64,000 nt of DNA, taken from Nocardioides kribbensis. GTDB lineage: Bacteria; Actinomycetota; Actinomycetes; Propionibacteriales; Nocardioidaceae. A program made the position numbers and the translations under genes. Where the stretch lies: NCBI RefSeq assembly GCF_015070375.1, contig NZ_JADCLL010000002.1, positions 124,001 through 188,000 on the forward strand. Direction: 5' to 3'. Below are positions 7,163 to 33,880 of the stretch, one piece after another. The notes under the pieces are model-generated. The model saw nothing but the letters and a program-made list of their open reading frames with translations. It was not told where the DNA came from and ran no database searches. Numbering within the stretch: the first letter of the stretch is position 1; every line of letters begins with the position of its first letter.

Positions 7163-7621
7163 GTGAAGTTGAAGGACAAGGACCCCTTCGCCGAACCCCG
7201 CCAGGGCCCGGCGGTCGGCCCCCGCTTCGTCGTCGCGCTCCTGCTCGTCGCGGCCGGCATCGCCTGGATCGCCTACTACTACCTCGGGGTCCGCGCCGAC
7301 CCGACCGTGCTCGACGCCGAGGCCTCGGGCCCGGCCTTCATGGGCGACATCGAGCGATGGAACTACGTCATCGGCTTCGGCCTGGTCCTCCTCGGACTCG
7401 TGGTCTCGGCCCACCCCTCGACCCCGCTCGGTCGCGGCCGTGGCGTCGTCGTCGGCATGCTGGGCTGCTTCGTGGTCGGCCTGATCTGGATCTGCACGTT
7501 CTACGTCTTCAGCAACGACCTCACCGACGTGCCGGTCTTCAACGACCTCAACCAGTCCAACCTCATCGTCGGCATCGCCTTCATGGCCGTCGGCTTCGTC
7601 TTCGCCACCCGCTGGGAGTGA
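7163..7621 (+). CDS. crgA: CrgA-like cell-division membrane protein with apparent internal duplication
   Basis: CrgA is a small actinobacterial membrane protein that interacts with FtsZ, FtsQ and PBPs at the septum. The usual family member is about 80-95 residues with two helices; this one has 152 residues and four hydrophobic segments (about 21-43, 67-83, 94-116 and 132-149). The first half holds the CrgA-like GIAWIAYYY and WNYVIGFGLVLLG. The second half holds GLIWICTFYVF and IVGIAFMAVGFVFATRW. Both look like CrgA units, which suggests tandem duplication or internal expansion. The ATG at 7163 follows AGGAGCACC. A hairpin terminator lies immediately downstream. Confidence 0.85.
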   Translation: MKLKDKDPFAEPRQGPAVGPRFVVALLLVAAGIAWIAYYYLGVRADPTVLDAEASGPAFMGDIERWNYVIGFGLVLLGLVVSAHPSTPLGRGRGVVVGMLGCFVVGLIWICTFYVFSNDLTDVPVFNDLNQSNLIVGIAFMAVGFVFATRWE

Positions 7622-7626
7622 GTCCC

Positions 7627-7650
7627 CCGGGGGCCTTCGCCGGCCCCCGG
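7627..7650 (+). terminator. Hairpin terminator after crgA
   Basis: CCGGGGGCC pairs with GGCCCCCGG around a six-base TTCGCC loop, six bases after the crgA stop. No strong T-run follows, which is usual in such GC-rich genomes. Confidence 0.6.
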
Positions 7651-7705
7651 ACCCGTCCCCGCCGCAGCGCCCGCACCGCCCGTCGTCCCCCCGGACGGCG
7701 GGCGG

Positions 7706-7783
7706 TTCTGCACATCTGGGGACAAACATGTGGAGAACTACACGCGTGTAGTTCTCCACATGTGATTCCACAGCTGTGGACAA
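7706..7783. promoter_or_regulatory. Cluster of DnaA-box-like sites around a 38-bp perfect palindrome
   Basis: A perfect palindrome with 19-base arms spans 7726-7763, its centre between 7744 and 7745. Each arm holds the 9-mer TTCTCCACA (7752-7760 on plus, 7729-7737 on minus). Nearby are TTCTGCACA (7706-7714), TGGGGACAA (7717-7725) and TGTGGACAA (7775-7783). The last is the exact reverse of TTGTCCACA, the actinobacterial DnaA-box consensus. The same TTCTCCACA variant occurs upstream of dnaA and parA in this window. There is no gene here; the site lies about 20 kb from oriC. DnaA binding is inference. Confidence 0.5.
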
Positions 7784-7798
7784 CTAGCCCCGCACCCC

Positions 7799-8067
7799 GG
7801 TGGTTGAGGAGCGAGCGCCAGCGAGCGTCTCGAAACCACGGACCGCCACGGTGGTTGAGGAGCGAGCCCTTCGAGACGCTCGCTGCGCTCGCTCCTCAGG
7901 AACCACGCCAGCGAGCGTCTCGAAACCACCCGCACCCCGGTGGTCGAGGAGCGAGCCCTTCGAGACGCTCGCTGCGCTCGCTCCTCAGGAACCACGCCAG
8001 CGAGCGTCTCGAAACCACGAACCACGGTGGTTGAGGAACCACGCCAGCGAGCGTCCCGACGCCACCC
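7799..8067. repeat. Block of four nested-palindrome dispersed repeats
   Basis: Copies begin at 7799, 7850, 7939 and 8026 with GGTGGTTGAGGAGCGAGC or a close variant, and most end with GTCTCGAAACCACC. Complete copies are about 80 bases. They have terminal inverted repeats GGTGGTT/AACCACC and inner palindromes, GAGGAGCGAGC with GCTCGCTCCTC and TTCGAGACGCTCGC with GCGAGCGTCTCGAA. The first and last copies are shorter deletion forms. The same family recurs at 14121-14287. No protein is convincingly encoded. I interpret it as a REP- or MITE-like non-autonomous element. Confidence 0.8.
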
Positions 8068-8102
8068 CGCACCCCGGGTGGCCGGAGAAGGTGAGGCTCG
8101 GC

Positions 8103-9038
8103 TCAGACGGTGAGCAGCCGCAGCACGACGGCGGCGGCGAGCACGGCGACGACGCCGGCGAGCCCGGCGGCCTGGACGACGGAGCGTCGGGGTCCGCGGG
8201 GGGAGTAGACGAGCACGGCGGCGACGGCGGCGCCGCCGAGGAAGCCGCCGAGGTGGCCCTGCCAGGAGATGTAGGGCACCGTGAAGGTGATCAGCGCGTT
8301 GAGGCCGACCCACAGCAGGATCTGCTGGACGTTGCCGCCGACCTTGTAGGCGATGACGAGCGTGGCGCCGAGCAGCCCGAAGATCGCGCCGGAGGCGCCG
8401 AGGGTGAGCGTGTTCTCGTCGGCCGCCCAGAGCACCAGCGTGGACCCGGCGAGCAGCGACACGAAGTAGAGCGCGAGGAAGCGGGTGCGGCCCAGCGCCA
8501 CCTCGAGCTGCGGGCCGAGGGCGTAGAGGGCCAGCATGTTGAGCCCGATGTGCAGGATCGAGGCGTGCAGGAAGCCGTTGCTGAGCAGCTGCCACAGCGC
8601 CCCGTCGGCCACGCCGGGGGCGAAGTAGGCGCTGCTGGGGCCCGCGCCCTCGCACACCGCCTGCGTGACCCCGGGGAAGTAGCGGCCGTCGGGCAGCTCG
8701 CAGCGCCCGAGGGTGTGCTGGCCGAGGTAGGCGACCAGCTTGCCGGCGGTGCCTCCCGAGGCCAGGGCCATCAGGAAGACGACCACGTTGACGCCGATGA
8801 GCACCATCGACGTCGTCGACGCCTTGGTCGGGCGCAGCCCGCCGTACGCCGTGCGCCCGCTCCTGGTGCTCTTCGCCCCCTCCGCCACGCACGACGGGCA
8901 CTGGAACCCGACCGCTGCGTCACGCATGCAGTCGGGGCAGATGGGCCGGCCGCACCGCTGGCACCGGATGTAGGTCTCCCGGTCGGGGTGCCGGTAGCAG
9001 GTGGGCACCCCGGTCTGGGAGGTCGGGTCAGCGGTCAC
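8103..9038 (-). CDS. Rhomboid-family intramembrane serine protease with N-terminal zinc finger
   Basis: A polytopic protease of 311 residues that cuts substrates inside the membrane. The N-terminus carries a B-box-like zinc-binding module (Cys14, Cys26, Cys29, Cys34, Cys37, Cys47, Cys50), common in actinobacterial rhomboids. Membrane helices begin near residue 76. The catalytic dyad is visible as GASG (Ser217) and GHLGG (His262), and the family motif appears as HIGLNMLALYALG. Start at ATG 9038. The cyclophilin gene lies 63 bases upstream on the same strand, so the two may be cotranscribed. The substrate is unknown. Confidence 0.93.
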   Translation of the reverse strand: MTADPTSQTGVPTCYRHPDRETYIRCQRCGRPICPDCMRDAAVGFQCPSCVAEGAKSTRSGRTAYGGLRPTKASTTSMVLIGVNVVVFLMALASGGTAGKLVAYLGQHTLGRCELPDGRYFPGVTQAVCEGAGPSSAYFAPGVADGALWQLLSNGFLHASILHIGLNMLALYALGPQLEVALGRTRFLALYFVSLLAGSTLVLWAADENTLTLGASGAIFGLLGATLVIAYKVGGNVQQILLWVGLNALITFTVPYISWQGHLGGFLGGAAVAAVLVYSPRGPRRSVVQAAGLAGVVAVLAAAVVLRLLTV

Positions 9039-14120: not shown

Positions 14121-14287
14121 GGTGGTCGAGGAGGGAGCCCCACAGCCGCACGGTGGTCGAGGAGGGAGCCCCACACCACACGGTGGTTGAGGAGGGAGCC
14201 CTTCGAGACGCTCGCTGCGCTCGCTCCTCAGGAACCACGCCAGCGACCGTCTCGAAACCACCCCACCACGGTGGTCGAGGATGGGGC
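14121..14287. repeat. Second block of the nested-palindrome repeat family
   Basis: Copies start at 14121, 14152, 14182 and 14270 with GGTGGTCGAGGAGGGAGC or close variants. Only the copy at 14182-14262 is full length, ending in GTCTCGAAACCACC; the other three are short 5' fragments. Relative to 7799-8067 it uses GAGGGAGC rather than GAGCGAGC. It lies just upstream of SURF1 in a gene-free interval. Confidence 0.8.
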
Positions 14288-16083: not shown

Positions 16084-16234
16084 GCGCGGCAGTCTGCCAC
16101 CCGGCCACCGTGGGCGGGCCGAGTCCGCCGAAGTCCGCCCAGCCGTCGTGGACAGCGGACCCGACACGGTCCCGGTCGACCGACCGCATGGTTTCCCGTG
16201 GAACATCGGGAGGGCGGCCCGTCCGGACCAGCGG

Positions 16235-25978: not shown

Positions 25979-27118
25979 TCAGGAGAGCAGGCGGCGCGGC
26001 ATGAGCAGGTAGCGGAAGCCGGTGTCGGTGCCCGCCTCGGCCGGCGACCCGCTGATGACGACCGGCTTGGCGGCCTGGGTGAAGGCCAGCTCGACGATCG
26101 GCTCGTCGATGGCGCTCAGCCCGTCGAGCAGGAACTGGGGGTTGAAGCCGGTCGTGATGTCGTCGCCCTCGATCTGGGCCTCGATCGACTCCGAGGCCTG
26201 CGCCTCGTCGCCCGACCCGGCGTCGAGGGTGAGCACACCGTCGCTGAAGGCCAACTGCACGGCGGTGTTGCGCTCGGCGACGAGCGAGACGCGCTTGACC
26301 GACTCGATCAGCGCCGCCTTGTCGACCTTGGCCACGGTGAGGTGCTCGCTGGGGAAGAGGCTGCGGACCTTGGGGAACTCACCGTCGAGCAGTCGCGTCG
26401 TCGTACGCCGCACCCCGCCCGGCGCCGCGCCCTCGAAGCCGATGATGCCCTCGCCGCTGCCGCTGGCGGCCAGCGCGATGACGACCTCGCTGCCCGCGGT
26501 CAGCGACTTGGCGGTGTCGCCGAGCACCTTCGCCGGCACCAGCGCAGCGAGGGTCTCGTCGGGGGTGCGGGGGTCCCAGCCCAGCTCGCGCTGGGAGAGG
26601 CGGAAGCGGTCGGTGGCCAGCAGCGAGATGCTCGAGCCGTCGATCTCGAGCCGCACGCCGGTCAGCACCGGGAGCATGTCGTCGCGCCCTGCCGCCGTGA
26701 CGGCCTGGGCCACCGAGTGGGCGAAGACGTCGCTCTGCACCGTGCCGGTCGCCGCGGGCATGTCGGGCAGCGACGGGTAGTCGGCCACCGGCATGGTCTG
26801 GAGGCTGAAGCGGGCCGAGCCGCAGGTGAGGGACACCCGTGAGCCGTCGAGCACCATCTCGACCGGCTTGGCCGGCAGGCTGCGGCAGATGTCGGCGAGC
26901 AGCCGGCCGCTGACCAGGGCGCGGCCCTCGGTGGTCACGTCGGCCTTGAGCGTGGCGCGGGCCGAGGTCTCGTAGTCGAAGGTCGAGAGCACCAGGCCCT
27001 CGTCGTCGGTCTCGATCAGCAGGCCGGCGAGGACGGGGACGCTCGGACGGACCGGCAGGCTGCGGGCAGCCCAGGCGACGGCATCGGCGAGCACGTCGCG
27101 TTCGACGCGGAACTTCAC
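25979..27118 (-). CDS. dnaN: DNA polymerase III beta sliding clamp
   Basis: The ring-forming processivity factor of the replicase, 379 residues from GTG 27118 with ribosome site GAAGGACACACC. An in-frame ATG at 27166 would add 16 residues lacking homology. Clamp landmarks are seen: N-terminal VKFRVERDVLADAVAWAARSLP, VSGRLLADICRSLP in domain 1, and the C-terminal RYLLMPRRL ending. The putative oriC is directly upstream. Confidence 0.98.
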   Translation of the reverse strand: MKFRVERDVLADAVAWAARSLPVRPSVPVLAGLLIETDDEGLVLSTFDYETSARATLKADVTTEGRALVSGRLLADICRSLPAKPVEMVLDGSRVSLTCGSARFSLQTMPVADYPSLPDMPAATGTVQSDVFAHSVAQAVTAAGRDDMLPVLTGVRLEIDGSSISLLATDRFRLSQRELGWDPRTPDETLAALVPAKVLGDTAKSLTAGSEVVIALAASGSGEGIIGFEGAAPGGVRRTTTRLLDGEFPKVRSLFPSEHLTVAKVDKAALIESVKRVSLVAERNTAVQLAFSDGVLTLDAGSGDEAQASESIEAQIEGDDITTGFNPQFLLDGLSAIDEPIVELAFTQAAKPVVISGSPAEAGTDTGFRYLLMPRRLLS

Positions 27119-27579
27119 GGTGTGTCCTTCGGGTGCGGCTGGGCTCTGGGGGGCTGATCCTGCCACGTCGTCCCGGCCGCTGGGAGTCCGGTGCGTCCTG
27201 TCGTGCTCCGTGCACCGGGTGCTCGCCCTGCGCTCATCGGTCCGTCACAGGCGCCGGGCGGAGGAGTTGTGCACAGGCAGGGGGGTCGGAACATGTTCAC
27301 GGAGGATCTGGACGTCTGGAGGTACGGAGGAGTCATAGCAGCGGTGGAATCTGTGGACAGCCAGCGTCTGCGCAGGTCAGGCCGCGTGGCGCTCGCTCAC
27401 AGGCCCTGTGCACGACGCCGTGGAACCACAAGGACCGGTGTGCAGTCGCGGGCGGCCGGTGAGTTCCGTCCACCGCTCGTCCACAGCCTCTCCCGGCGAT
27501 GCGGGGCCGGCGCACAGGCGGCTCCACATCCCACAACGGTGTAGTTCACCCGCGCACCGACGAGGTGGCGACGGGCGGA
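27119..27579. other. oriC: Putative chromosomal replication origin (oriC)
   Basis: A 461-base gene-free stretch between dnaN and dnaA, the standard actinobacterial oriC position. Candidate DnaA boxes include TTGTGCACA (27267-27275), TGTGGACAG (minus strand, 27352-27360) and TCGTCCACA (27477-27485). Weaker ones lie near 27398 (CTGTGCACG) and 27472 (CCGTCCACC). The bases around 27295-27360 are less GC-rich than the surroundings and include the palindrome AACATGTT. I see no long AT-rich unwinding element, which fits high-GC origins. Confidence 0.85.
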
Positions 27580-29013
27580 TCAGACCTGACGGGCCTGCAT
27601 CTTCACGCGGTTGGTGAGCTCGCTGACCTGGTTGAAGACGGCCCGGCGCTCGGCCAGCAGCTGGTTGATCTTGCGGTCGGCGTACATGACCGTGGTGTGG
27701 TCGCGGTTGCCGAACTGCGCGCCGATCTTCGGCAGCGAGAGGTCGGTGAGCTCACGGCACAGGTACATGGCGATCTGGCGGGCCATGACGAGGTGCCGAC
27801 CGCGCGAGGGGCCGGTGAGCTCCTCGATGGACAGACCGAAGTACGCCGCCGTCTGGGCGATGATCAGCGCAGCGGTGATCTCGGGCTCCCCGCCCTCGGG
27901 GATCAGGTCCTTCAGCACGATCTCGGCCAGGGTCATGTCGACCTCCTGGCGGTTGAGGTTGGCGAAGGCCGTCACCCGGATCAGCGCGCCCTCCAGCTCG
28001 CGGATGTTGGTCTGGATCTTCGAGGCGATGAACTCCAGCACGTCCGGCGGCGCGGTCAGGCGGTCCATGGCGGCCTTCTTGCGCAGGATCGCGATGCGCG
28101 TCTCGAGGTCGGGGGGCTGGACGTCGGTGATCAGCCCCCACTCGAAGCGGTTGCGCAGCCGGTCCTCGAGCGCCTCGAGCCGCTTGGGCGCGCGGTCGGA
28201 GGTCAGCACGATCTGCTTGTTGGCGTTGTGGAGGGTGTTGAACGTGTGGAAGAACTCCTCCTGGGTCTGGGTCTTGCCCTCCAGGAACTGGATGTCGTCG
28301 ATCAGCAGCACGTCGACGTCGCGGTAGCGCCGCTTGAAGCGGTCCTGCCGGTCGTCGCGGATCGCGTTGATGAACTCGTTGGTGAACTCCTCGCTCGACA
28401 CGTAGCGCACCTTGGCGCCGGTGTAGAGCGAGCGCACGTAGTGGCCGATGGCGTGGAGCAGGTGGGTCTTGCCCAGCCCGGAGTCGCCGTAGACCAGCAG
28501 CGGGTTGTAGGCCTTGCCGGGAGCCTCGGCGACAGCGACGGCCGCCGCGTGGGGGAAGCGGTTGGACGAGCCGATGACGAACGTCTCGAAGGTGTACTTG
28601 GGGTTGAGCCGCGTCTCCAGCGCGCTCGTCTGGCGGCTGCCCGCCTGCTCCGCGACGGGGGCGGGCTCGGCGCGTCGTGTGTCTATGTCGACATGTCGAT
28701 CAATGGTCTCGACCGGGGTCGGGTCGGGACTGGTGGGGCGGGGCTCGTCCTCGAGCTGGGGGTTCACCGTCACCGCGATGCGGATCTCCCGGCCGAAGGA
28801 GACCGTGAGGGCGTCCTCCAGCTGACCGCGCAGCCGGCCCTCGAGCTGCCCGCGCGTGAAGTCGTTGGGCACCGCGATGATCGCCGTGTTGCCGTGGAGG
28901 GTCACCGGCTCGCTGGCGTTGAGCCAGGCGCGCTGGTTGGGCTGCAGGTCCGCCACCACCGAGCGCCAGGCCGGGCCGAGCTCCGGGGGCGTCTGGTCCA
29001 CGTCTTGGTCCAC
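27580..29013 (-). CDS. dnaA: Chromosomal replication initiator DnaA
   Basis: The initiator ATPase, 477 residues from GTG 29013; a second in-frame GTG at 29001 is possible. Domain I occupies about residues 8-85. A variable Pro/Thr/Asp linker follows, then the AAA+ domain with Walker A GDSGLGKT (Lys182) and Walker [11 protein letters not shown]. The DNA-binding domain carries the signature [16 protein letters not shown]. Two DnaA boxes in its leader (29095-29115) and one upstream of the -35 suggest autoregulation. Confidence 0.98.
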
Positions 29014-29094
29014 GTCCTTGCCGCCTTCTGGTTGACCTTCTGGTTCGGTCCTCCGAAGGGGACCTCGGCCCGGGCGGGCCGCACGGTGCTCTGC

Positions 29095-29115
29095 TTCTCC
29101 ACACCTTTGTCCACA
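29095..29115. promoter_or_regulatory. Pair of DnaA boxes in the dnaA leader
   Basis: TTCTCCACA (29095-29103) and the consensus TTGTCCACA (29107-29115) lie three bases apart, between the presumed dnaA transcription start and its GTG. A third site, TCATCCACA (29324-29332), lies just upstream of the presumed -35. Confidence 0.7.
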
Positions 29116-29289
29116 GGTTGTGAAACTCCGTCGCGACCTCGTCGTCGCCGCGGTGCCGAGGCGCCGGGTGCGTCCGCCCTCCGCAACGTCTTCGCAGGTC
29201 AGAGGGGTGATGCGAGGGTGCTGCGGCGCGGTGCTCCGGTGCTGGCCACCTCGTCGGCGCCGTGGGTGCACGGGTCATCGGAGACCGCG

Positions 29290-32000: not shown

Positions 32001-32753
32001 GTGTCCGAGGCTGACGTTCCACGTGAAACACCCTCCCCGCCCGACGTGGCCGGGAGGGTGTTCTCGCTCGACCGCCTTCCCCTGGCCGTCCGGCTGTGGG
32101 AGCTGCTGGCCGACGCCGGCGTGGTCCGGGGGCTGATCGGCCCGCGCGAGGTCCCGCGGCTGTGGGACCGCCACCTCCTCAACTGTGCGGTGCTCGCCGA
32201 CGCCCTGCCGGCGGGGTCCTCGGTGTGCGACATCGGGTCCGGGGCCGGCCTGCCCGGGCTCGTGCTCGCAGTGCGGCGGCCCGACCTGAGGCTGACCCTG
32301 GTCGAGCCGTTGCTGCGGCGCACGACGTTCCTCGACGAGGCGGTGGAGGAGCTCGGCCTCGACACCGTGGTCGTGCGCCGTGGACGCGCCGACGACCTCC
32401 ACGGCGAGCAGACCTTCGACGTGGTCACCTCCCGGGCCGTGGCGCCGCTGGAGCGGCTTCTGGGGTGGTCGATGCCCCTGGTGGCGCCGGAGGGCGCCCT
32501 GGTGGCGATGAAGGGGTCCTCGGTGGCCGACGAGGTGGAGGAGGCGCGCGGCGCGCTGCAGCGCTGGGGATGCGCGGAGCCTGAGGTGCTCACGCTGGGA
32601 GCAGGCACCGTTGATCCCCCGACCACGGCCCTCCGGGTGGCCTGGTCCGACCCGGCGACGGTACGTTGGCCTCCTGCGCCGACGCGCGACGAGCCCCGCA
32701 GACCCGCCCGCGGGGCGTCCGCCCGTCGTCGTGGCAGTCGCCGCCCCCGCTGA
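32001..32753 (+). CDS. rsmG: 16S rRNA (guanine-N7) methyltransferase RsmG
   Basis: An AdoMet-dependent methyltransferase of 250 residues modifying the 530-loop guanine of 16S rRNA. Motif I is CDIGSGAGLPGLVLA; VTSRAVAPLERLLGW and AMKGSSVADEV are typical further down. The N-terminal residues VPRET are encoded by a parS site, so the DNA element shapes the protein there. The C-terminal 40 residues are a basic, Arg/Pro-rich extension (PARGASARRRGSRRP). GTG start at 32001. Confidence 0.95.
   Translation: MSEADVPRETPSPPDVAGRVFSLDRLPLAVRLWELLADAGVVRGLIGPREVPRLWDRHLLNCAVLADALPAGSSVCDIGSGAGLPGLVLAVRRPDLRLTLVEPLLRRTTFLDEAVEELGLDTVVVRRGRADDLHGEQTFDVVTSRAVAPLERLLGWSMPLVAPEGALVAMKGSSVADEVEEARGALQRWGCAEPEVLTLGAGTVDPPTTALRVAWSDPATVRWPPAPTRDEPRRPARGASARRRGSRRPR
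32015..32030. promoter_or_regulatory. parS: parS site 1
   Basis: CGTTCCACGTGAAACA matches the consensus TGTTTCACGTGAAACA at 14 of 16 bases. It lies in the first codons of rsmG and is the expected ParB nucleation site for origin segregation. Confidence 0.9.
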
Positions 32754-32765
32754 GGGGCACCGGAG

Positions 32766-32850
32766 TTATCCACCGGGACGCGCCCCTGCATTCCGCCTGT
32801 TCCACGCTCAGAGAGGCCAGTTCTCCACAGATGGCACACCATTCTCCACA
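32766..32850. promoter_or_regulatory. DnaA-box-like cluster before parA
   Basis: TTATCCACC (32766-32774), TTCTCCACA (32821-32829) and TTCTCCACA (32842-32850) lie between the rsmG stop and the parA 5' end, the last inside the presumed parA N-terminus. The TTCTCCACA variant also occurs upstream of dnaA. The spacing suggests real sites, but binding is inferred. Confidence 0.5.
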
Positions 32851-33880
32851 GGGCGTACCGACGTCGTCAGACCAGTCCGTTTCACGTGAAACGGGAGCGG
32901 CGAGCAGCGGCCCCGGGTCCGCGGGGTCGTCGGGCTACACGGTGAGGACGGCGGGCGAGATGGCGGCGTACGAGCCCTCGCTGCACGACGACGCCACTCC
33001 CCTGGCCCGCGCGGCCGAGCACACGGTGCTGGCACGCGAGGGACGGCGCACGGGACCGGCACTCCCCCGGCCCCGTGAGACCCGCGTCTTCGTGGTGGCC
33101 AACCAGAAGGGCGGGGTCGGGAAGACCACCTCCACGGTGAACGTCGCCGCCGCCCTGGCCCAGCTGGGCCAGAAGGTGCTGGTGGTCGACCTCGACCCTC
33201 AGGGCAACGCCTCGACCGCGCTGAACATCGAGCACCGGCGCGGTGTCGCGTCGACCTACGACGCCCTGGTCGACGGCGCTCCCCTGGAGGAGGTCGCCGT
33301 GGCGTGCCCCGACGTGGCGGGCCTCATGGTCGTGCCGGCGACCATCGACCTGGCCGGCGCCGAGATCGAGCTCGTGAGCGTCGTGGCGCGCGAGGGCCGG
33401 CTGCGCAAGGCCATCCACGGCCATCCCCTGGTCGGCAGCCTCGAGGAGATCGGGGACGAGCGCATCGACTACGTGCTCATCGACTGCCCGCCGTCCCTGG
33501 GGCTGCTCACCCTCAACGCCCTGGTCGCCGGGGACGAGATGATGATCCCGATCCAGGCGGAGTACTACGCGCTGGAAGGGCTCGGACAGCTCCTGGAGAC
33601 CGTCGACATGGTGCGCAAGCACCTCAACCCGGAGCTGTCGGTCTCCACCATCCTCATCACCATGTACGACGCGCGCACCCGCCTGGCCGCCGGCGTGGCC
33701 AGCGAGGTGCGCGAGCACTTCGGGGAGCAGGTGCTCCGCACCAACATCCCCCGCTCGGTGCGGGTCTCCGAGGCGCCGTCCTACGCCCAGACCGTGATGA
33801 CCTACGACCCCGGCTCCCCCGGCGCGCTCAGCTACCTGGAGGCGGCCCGGGAGATCGCGACGAAGGCGGTGGCGGTGTGA
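32831..33880 (+). CDS. parA: Chromosome-partitioning ATPase ParA
   Basis: A Walker-type ATPase of 349 residues that moves ParB-parS complexes over the nucleoid. The deviant Walker A is KGGVGKTT (Lys98), with DLDPQGNAST and DCPPSLGLLTLNAL further on. A long N-terminal extension (1-85) carries VSRET, encoded by parS, and the stretch DATPLARAAE, resembling actinobacterial ParA leaders. The ATG at 32831 has no clear ribosome site; GTG 32942 and ATG 32960 are alternatives. The stop overlaps the parB start (GTGA). Confidence 0.94.
   Translation: MAHHSPQGVPTSSDQSVSRETGAASSGPGSAGSSGYTVRTAGEMAAYEPSLHDDATPLARAAEHTVLAREGRRTGPALPRPRETRVFVVANQKGGVGKTTSTVNVAAALAQLGQKVLVVDLDPQGNASTALNIEHRRGVASTYDALVDGAPLEEVAVACPDVAGLMVVPATIDLAGAEIELVSVVAREGRLRKAIHGHPLVGSLEEIGDERIDYVLIDCPPSLGLLTLNALVAGDEMMIPIQAEYYALEGLGQLLETVDMVRKHLNPELSVSTILITMYDARTRLAAGVASEVREHFGEQVLRTNIPRSVRVSEAPSYAQTVMTYDPGSPGALSYLEAAREIATKAVAV
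32878..32893. promoter_or_regulatory. parS: parS site 2
   Basis: CGTTTCACGTGAAACG is a perfect 16-base palindrome matching the parS consensus at 14 positions, with only the outermost bases differing. It lies in the parA 5' coding region. Confidence 0.95.

Follow-up and report, generated by a model that had tools for sequence, protein, structure and literature searches.

We describe here an element of the Nocardioides kribbensis genome (assembly GCF_015070375.1) that was found in a 64,000-nucleotide stretch of contig NZ_JADCLL010000002.1, running from position 124,001 to 188,000 of the forward strand and referred to below as the window. It lies between the stop codon of crgA and the next gene, near the origin of replication (oriC), and it holds a cluster of DnaA-like boxes that includes an inverted pair. 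Judged from the sequences of its relatives, what the element conserves is not its symmetry but a set of inverted DnaA-box pairs arrayed about a core, YTACA-N4-TGTAR. The best reading of these sequences is that it represents the Nocardioides form of a site that follows crgA in many families of actinomycetes, and that it would be the positional equivalent of the Rv0010c-Rv0011c site of Mycobacterium tuberculosis. Functionally, we regard it as fairly probable that the element is an oriC-proximal DnaA control site that is gated by a second regulator. The parts of this explanation carry different weight: that the site is a DnaA site is very probable, and the second factor proposed to act at the core is probably real, whilst control of the DnaA pool or of its nucleotide state by the site has roughly even chances of being correct.

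Structure of the element

At the centre of the element is a loop-less perfect palindrome of 38 bp, ACATGTGGAGAACTACACGCGTGTAGTTCTCCACATGT, at 7726-7763 (no strand). A scan of the 64-kb window found it to be the longest palindrome present, the runner-up measuring 18 bp. It had been pointed out in an earlier note on this DNA, together with the TTCTCCACA carried by each arm, the exact TTGTCCACA on the minus strand beside it and the accompanying weaker boxes, and all of these were confirmed. Read from left to right, the element begins with a weak outer DnaA-like box, TTCTGCACA (7706-7714, plus strand), which was assigned by sequence and at which aligned relatives mostly have TTnTCCACA. It is followed by its inverted partner, TTGTCCCCA (7717-7725, minus strand), where relatives commonly carry a TGGGGA-type sequence. 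The inner left box TTCTCCACA (7729-7737, minus strand) is within the left arm of the palindrome and the inner right box, again TTCTCCACA (7752-7760, plus strand), is within the right arm. Between them sits the core operator CTACA-N4-TGTAG (7738-7751, no strand), the proposed site of the second regulator, for which the evidence is its recurrence at crgA, nrdR, nrdHIE, the rpmH-dnaA gap and peptidoglycan-hydrolase genes. The outer right pair is made up of a weak box, GATTCCACA (7764-7772, plus strand), assigned by sequence and by ..TTCCACAgcTGTGGA.. being common here in relatives, and the exact DnaA box TTGTCCACA (7775-7783, minus strand), which is supported by its sequence and by box counts.

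Boxes of the pattern TTNTCCMCA number nine in the window against 0.51 expected, and four of the nine are found within 67 bases at the palindrome. The whole 4.12-Mb genome (15 contigs) holds 35 such boxes, compared with 12 matches to a reversed-pattern control. Clusters of at least three boxes within 100 bp occur three times in the genome and the crgA gap is one of them (4 boxes in 67 bp). The second cluster consists of four boxes directly upstream of dnaB (C7:193372-193459; L229:2870-2960, where C and L, like G and f below, are our handles for contigs, loci, genomes and families), and the third of three boxes upstream of nrdR (C9:281084-281167; L139:5950-6250). The dnaB-upstream cluster has a match among the five DnaA regions listed for mycobacteria in PMC7738170. 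Two further boxes in the window, at 29095 and 29107, probably match the same list; they lie inside the longest dnaA open reading frame (ORF), between the start of the DnaA-family match (28935) and rpmH.

Conservation in Nocardioides

The best 80 of 144 CrgA relatives were taken as a Nocardioides-type set, most of them titled Nocardioides and a few of them ‘Actinomycetota’ or ‘Actinomycetes’ metagenome-assembled genomes (MAGs). Boxes and cores were counted in the 400 bp after crgA, of which two loci (L064 and L117) have less than the full length. A 28-position palindrome template scored at least 18 in 73 of the 80 loci, L064 and L117 being two of the seven misses; the best control scores were 16 for shuffled sequence (one shuffle per locus) and 17 for upstream stretches. 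TTNTCCMCA was found 170 times after crgA in the 80 loci against 0.84 expected, with at least two boxes in 52 loci and at least three in 35, and it was absent from the upstream control stretches. The core pattern YYACA-N4-TGTRRTT was present in 62/80 loci and, again, in none of the upstream control stretches.

The pattern of conservation was followed base by base in 47 aligned sites, comprising the window and the 46 loci with a template score of at least 24, a choice that favours symmetric sites. Little variation is seen in either inner box or in the half-sites of the core, which are of the ACTACA and TGTAGT types, apart from the opening base of the left half-site (C in 28 sites, T in 19); the bases of the core spacer are much freer than the half-sites. 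The third position of the left inner box is C in 41 sites and A in 6, that of the right is C in 30, A in 12 and G in 5, and the two are unmatched across the axis, being unpaired in 21/47 sites. Only five of the 47 sites form a perfect palindrome over 32 bp. Perfect symmetry was rejected as the selected feature for this reason, and the perfection of the window palindrome is incidental because so few sites are perfect and the third box position is unmatched across the axis. Reading outward, the consensus resolves into three inverted pairs: TTnTCCACA..TGGGGAtAA, TGTGGAgAA-core-TTcTCCACA and TTCCACAgcTGTGGA. The conservation in relatives that the earlier note had raised holds for the boxes and the core, which follow crgA in most of the 80 loci, and not for perfect symmetry. 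Overall, the constraint looks like that seen at protein sites on DNA, not like that of a hairpin.

Distribution across the actinomycete class

CrgA is present in 385 of the 394 class genomes that were sampled. A class panel of 103 crgA-downstream loci from 30 families was assembled, in part by our own choice (30 loci from the family of the window, 30 class-wide, 40 chosen and 3 from the composite search described below); two genomes contribute two loci each (G121, L178/L227; G461, L168/L222), and the family counts cover the sampled loci only, within the families of the listed crgA matches. TTNTCCMCA occurs 206 times in the panel against 1.33 expected, and a looser core, YBACA-N4-TGTNR, is found in 78 of the 103 loci against 1.56 expected, as compared with 3 boxes and no cores in 63 upstream control stretches. 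A locus with at least two boxes was found in 22 of the 30 sampled families, and a locus with the core likewise in 22. In a held-out test, a 23-column matrix of fixed spacing, for which 17 of the 30 loci from the family of the window had served as the training set, reached p<=0.01 in 43 of the 73 loci outside that family. The family labelled f5, whose genus g31 is taken to be Mycobacterium (as f20 is taken to be Streptomyces), has the core after crgA in 18/18 loci and at least two boxes in 9/18.

DnaA binding has been observed at the mycobacterial counterpart. In M. tuberculosis, the Rv0010c-Rv0011c region was shown to bind DnaA by both IDAP-seq and electrophoretic mobility shift assay (EMSA), and the homologous region of M. 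smegmatis was found in DnaA chromatin immunoprecipitation sequencing (ChIP-seq) (PMC7738170). Of the convergent changes in clinical isolates, all but one map to a short palindrome made up of two DnaA-like boxes, and these clinical mutations tie the site to altered isoniazid susceptibility via an unexplained DnaA pathway (PMC7738170). The Rv0010c-Rv0011c mutants that were tested formed longer cells, and the expression of neither neighbouring gene was altered in dnaA mutants (PMC7738170).

The proposed core operator at other genes

The core recurs in company with DnaA boxes at a small set of genes. A composite of the two, ACA-N4-TGTAGTT-N-TCCACA with at most one mismatch, was found in 116/394 class genomes, and a reversed control in 4. 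Inspection of 80 composite sites in 80 loci (a non-random set, to which some genomes contribute more than one) placed 34 at crgA (33 by its end and 1 at a partial match), 16 at the beginning of nrdR, 14 at that of nrdH (nrdHIE) and 3 in the rpmH-dnaA gap. The other 13 are without an assigned gene, and in 3 of these NrdR-box-like pairs were seen by eye. Upstream of nrdR, a composite matrix was significant in 10/10 loci that had been selected for the composite, and the 40 nrdR loci considered hold 45 DnaA-like boxes against 1.27 expected. In the nrdR promoter of N. kribbensis itself (L139:5950-6250, C9), which also has three DnaA-like boxes, the core operator is located between two NrdR boxes 31 bp apart; the NrdR box positions given in PMC9110341 yield the same 31-bp spacing. 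The core is distinct from both NrdR boxes at this promoter. At the window site, its identification as an NrdR box was rejected: direct reading of 7700-7790 against the description in PMC9110341 found no pair of 10-bp C..G boxes separated by about three helical turns, and the core differs from such a pair in having a 4-bp spacer. A link between DnaA and nrdR in actinomycetes is possible.

The core is also found where DnaA boxes are absent. The N. kribbensis genome has six sites with TACA-N4-TGTA, as compared with one for the reversed control: the crgA gap, nrdR, and upstream of an M23 peptidase (L307), an N-acetylmuramoyl amidase (L308) and an Rv2525c-like glycosidase that is peptidoglycan-binding. 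The sixth is a core-like site at C12:8717 (L311:1500-1512), located inside or next to an ORF that matches HTH_31, and could reflect either chance or a regulator gene. Across the genus, AACTACA-N4-TGTAR is present in 23/23 Nocardioides genomes, with 146 strand matches (symmetric sites being counted on both strands) against 4 for the control. A census of the genes at 30 listed loci, which represent 26 distinct sites, assigned 5 sites to crgA, 7 to nrdR, 3 to NlpC/P60 genes, 4 to the Rv2525c-like glycosidase, 3 to amidases (L326, L336 and L342 = L308), 1 to an M23 peptidase (L319 = L307) and 1 to the interval between two SpoIID genes, with 2 sites (L320 and L332) lacking an assigned gene. With the loci of N. 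kribbensis included, a TTNTCCMCA box lies within 200 bp of the core at 6/6 crgA sites and 8/8 nrdR sites, as against 0/13 hydrolase sites and 0/3 sites without an assigned gene. As far as these patterns can tell, the core is a signal separate from the DnaA boxes, with targets of its own. GTGAC-type repeats were seen by eye in several of the hydrolase flanks (core sites include L307, L308, L312, L314, L315 and L318), and their by-eye likeness to the MtrA direct repeat of PMC6265350 makes them candidate MtrA sites.

Gene neighbourhood and distance to oriC

The upstream neighbour of the element is crgA (7163-7621, plus strand), which has two PF06781 matches. Its product is roughly double the normal length for CrgA, with tandem CrgA-model matches at C7:131211-131408 and C7:131445-131615; two CrgA matches are listed in 20 of the 22 genus genomes, that of N. 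kribbensis included. The neighbour on the other side encodes a rhomboid-type membrane protein (8103-9038, minus strand), named from reading of its sequence, the product having no NCBIfam match at 1e-10. The two genes converge on the gap, which corrects the earlier note, where the genes around crgA were called divergent, and a divergent-promoter reading of the element was rejected accordingly. In the Nocardioides-type loci a rhomboid match within 2 kb is convergent with crgA in 77/80, codirectional in none and lacking in 3. Neither a promoter-like match nor a terminator-like match (a GC stem-loop followed by a T run) was found in 7550-8150. Much of the remaining crgA-rhomboid gap is occupied by dispersed repeats with GCGAGCGTCTCGAAACCAC (7799-8065, and also 14243-14261), of which the window has 5 matches with at most 3 mismatches against 0.04 expected. 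A separate 28-bp perfect palindrome, GTTCGCACGTGTTGCAACACGTGCGAAC, lies 192 bp after crgA in one Nocardioides MAG (L098).

The landmarks for oriC are dnaN (25979-27166, minus strand; TIGR00663) and dnaA, the longest ORF of which runs from 27580-29271 on the minus strand (TIGR00362). The true start of dnaA is probably near 28,980, because the DnaA family match begins only at residue 113. The distance from the element to the dnaN-dnaA gap (27167-27579) is 19.4-19.8 kb, in agreement with the figure of about 20 kb from oriC put forward previously. An identity of the palindrome as parS was rejected: matches in the window to a GTTTCACGTGAAAC-like 14-mer, which we take to be the parS consensus, were found (with at most 2 mismatches) at 16191, 32016 and 32879 only. 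The latter two (32016-32029, 1 mismatch; 32879-32892, 0 mismatches) are a few kb from dnaA, and two TTCTCCACA boxes are located near these parS-like 14-mers, at 32821 and 32842.

Proposed function and alternative explanations

In the explanation that we favour, about six DnaA-like boxes, forming three inverted pairs, surround CTACA-N4-TGTAG, the putative operator of a second, probably dimeric regulator. DnaA would load cooperatively onto the boxes and, given its distance of about 20 kb from oriC, the site would be duplicated right after initiation, thereby lowering the free DnaA pool or switching its nucleotide state. The second regulator, the core for which is also found at nrd, dnaA and peptidoglycan-hydrolase genes, would gate this effect of DnaA, and such gating would keep initiation, deoxynucleoside triphosphate (dNTP) supply and cell separation in step. 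A more general form of the proposal is that YTACA-N4-TGTAR is the operator of a putative widespread actinomycete cell-cycle regulator, which would partner DnaA at the crgA gap and at ribonucleotide-reductase and dnaA promoters and would act independently of DnaA at the promoters of cell-separation hydrolases; this is advanced tentatively, our confidence in it falling just short of even. If true, this regulator and DnaA would come together at the element in the crgA gap, a hub that would tie replication initiation to dNTP supply and to the splitting of the septum.

Several observations weigh against the gated DnaA control site. Within the Nocardioides-type set, 12/80 loci have no TTNTCCMCA box after crgA and the core pattern is absent from 18/80. 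In the class panel, 8 of the 30 families lack the core in their sampled loci, it being found in 0/4 f18 and 0/4 f20 loci; at least two boxes are present in 1/4 f18 loci (f20 retains them in 4/4), and the spacing from core to box varies by eye in some families. The neighbourhood of crgA is not fixed either, since a convergent rhomboid gene is present in only 7/18 f5 loci. Beyond the class the composite is close to the background level, because it was found there in 11 genomes as compared with 6/198 for the reversed control (the phylum-wide count being 15/198 genomes, 4 of which are class members already counted). The composite matrix was significant in only 6/30 nrdR loci that had not been selected for the composite; 14 of these 30 loci are from f21 or f35, of which one passes the matrix, and a core with different spacing is visible by eye in the f21 loci. 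The positional equivalence depends on Rv0011c, which we take to be crgA, a name that is not used in PMC7738170. DnaA binding at the Nocardioides site is predicted by homology to the mycobacterial site, the partner and its role are conjectural, and titration and a nucleotide switch are both candidate modes of action. Finally, the rate of replication initiation was unchanged in the mycobacterial mutants (PMC7738170), and a simple strong titration site therefore fits poorly.

Among the alternatives, the one that survives best, which we nonetheless consider unlikely, is a switch of the DARS or datA kind, in which the site would alter the ATP/ADP state of DnaA and a second factor would take the role that IHF/Fis have in E. 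coli. It is consistent with the compact arrangement of inverted boxes around a partner site, with the noncoding position close to oriC, and with the M. tuberculosis counterpart, mutants of which behave as dnaA mutants with the initiation rate unchanged (PMC7738170). Less probable again is an array for DnaA alone, in which two weak DnaA sites placed tail to tail would make up the core and the element as a whole would serve as a passive sink for DnaA. The half-sites of the core do end in ACA, as DnaA boxes do, the flanking pairs share a similar tail-to-tail layout, and f5 reads TCACA-N4-TGTGA, which is nearer to the 3' half of a DnaA box. However, the T of the left TACA half, which is not a DnaA-box base, is kept in 45/47 aligned sites whilst the adjacent boxes read CCACA, and the lack of any box within 200 bp of the 13 Nocardioides hydrolase cores makes weak DnaA boxes less likely as an account of the core and slightly raises the likelihood of a second factor.

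We think it very unlikely that the element regulates the transcription of crgA or the neighbouring gene. Its position adjoining a septation gene, the presence of the same core upstream of genes elsewhere and the up-regulation of Rv0010c in M. tuberculosis without HigA2 (PMC11205783) would all suit such a role, but in 77/80 Nocardioides-type loci the site lies in a gap on which the two genes converge, beyond the 3' end of each, and the surroundings of the element have no promoter-like match. The two interpretations offered in the earlier note consequently part company here: a DnaA-control locus near oriC gains from the conserved boxes and from mycobacterial DnaA binding, and regulation of divergent genes falls with the convergent orientation and the lack of a promoter-like match. 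A perfect palindrome between convergent genes might suggest a hairpin in RNA, a bidirectional terminator or a cruciform, but such a structure is scarcely credible and was rejected, since 21, 22 and 24 of the 47 sites lack pairing at arm columns 6, 9 and 14, respectively, perfection over 32 bp is rare even though the sites were picked by similarity to a symmetric template, no terminator-like match was found in 7550-8150, and the Rfam matches, all of them to microRNA (miRNA) families, are far below the gathering score.

For the gated DnaA control site, the mycobacterial site was already known, and what is apparently undescribed, as far as the available sources extend, is the wider extent of the element, its separate core, the mirrored layout in Nocardioides and the sharing of the core with nrd, dnaA and hydrolase genes. 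No description of the core motif, or of a link between DnaA boxes and nrdR in actinobacteria, was found in the open-licence literature in so far as its text was available. Actinomycetes are not known to have the best-known controls of E. coli and Caulobacter. The element offers a handle on the coupling of replication and division in actinomycetes, and its wide distribution with a second operator would give the isoniazid-linked DnaA pathway of mycobacteria a testable partner, along with harmless organisms for its study.

Comparison with known systems

The datA, DARS1 and DARS2 loci of E. coli resemble the element in being noncoding DnaA-box clusters outside oriC; effects on the nucleotide state of DnaA with IHF/Fis are a feature of the E. 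coli systems. The Streptomyces clusters H69, H24 and D78, the subject of work by Smulczyk-Krawczyszyn et al. in 2006, are near oriC and reportedly affect replication frequency; they are said to bind DnaA with high affinity, and their deletion to raise replication. The likeness lies in boxes close to oriC, and the f20 loci of the class panel retain boxes without the core. At the mycobacterial gap itself, HigA2 binds ATCAC(N)4-7GTGAT in vitro at 8 uM (PMC11205783). This motif matches the core as it is read in f5 sequences, although HigA2 was studied in M. tuberculosis, with nothing to connect it to the wider core.

The Rv0010c-Rv0011c site shares with the element a position 3' of crgA, proximity to oriC and clustered DnaA-like boxes that include an inverted pair. 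In PMC7738170 it is described as having no obvious correspondence in other species. In contrast, the element described here extends to many families, and it differs from the mycobacterial site in its separate core operator, in the mirrored box layout of Nocardioides and in its usually convergent rhomboid gene.
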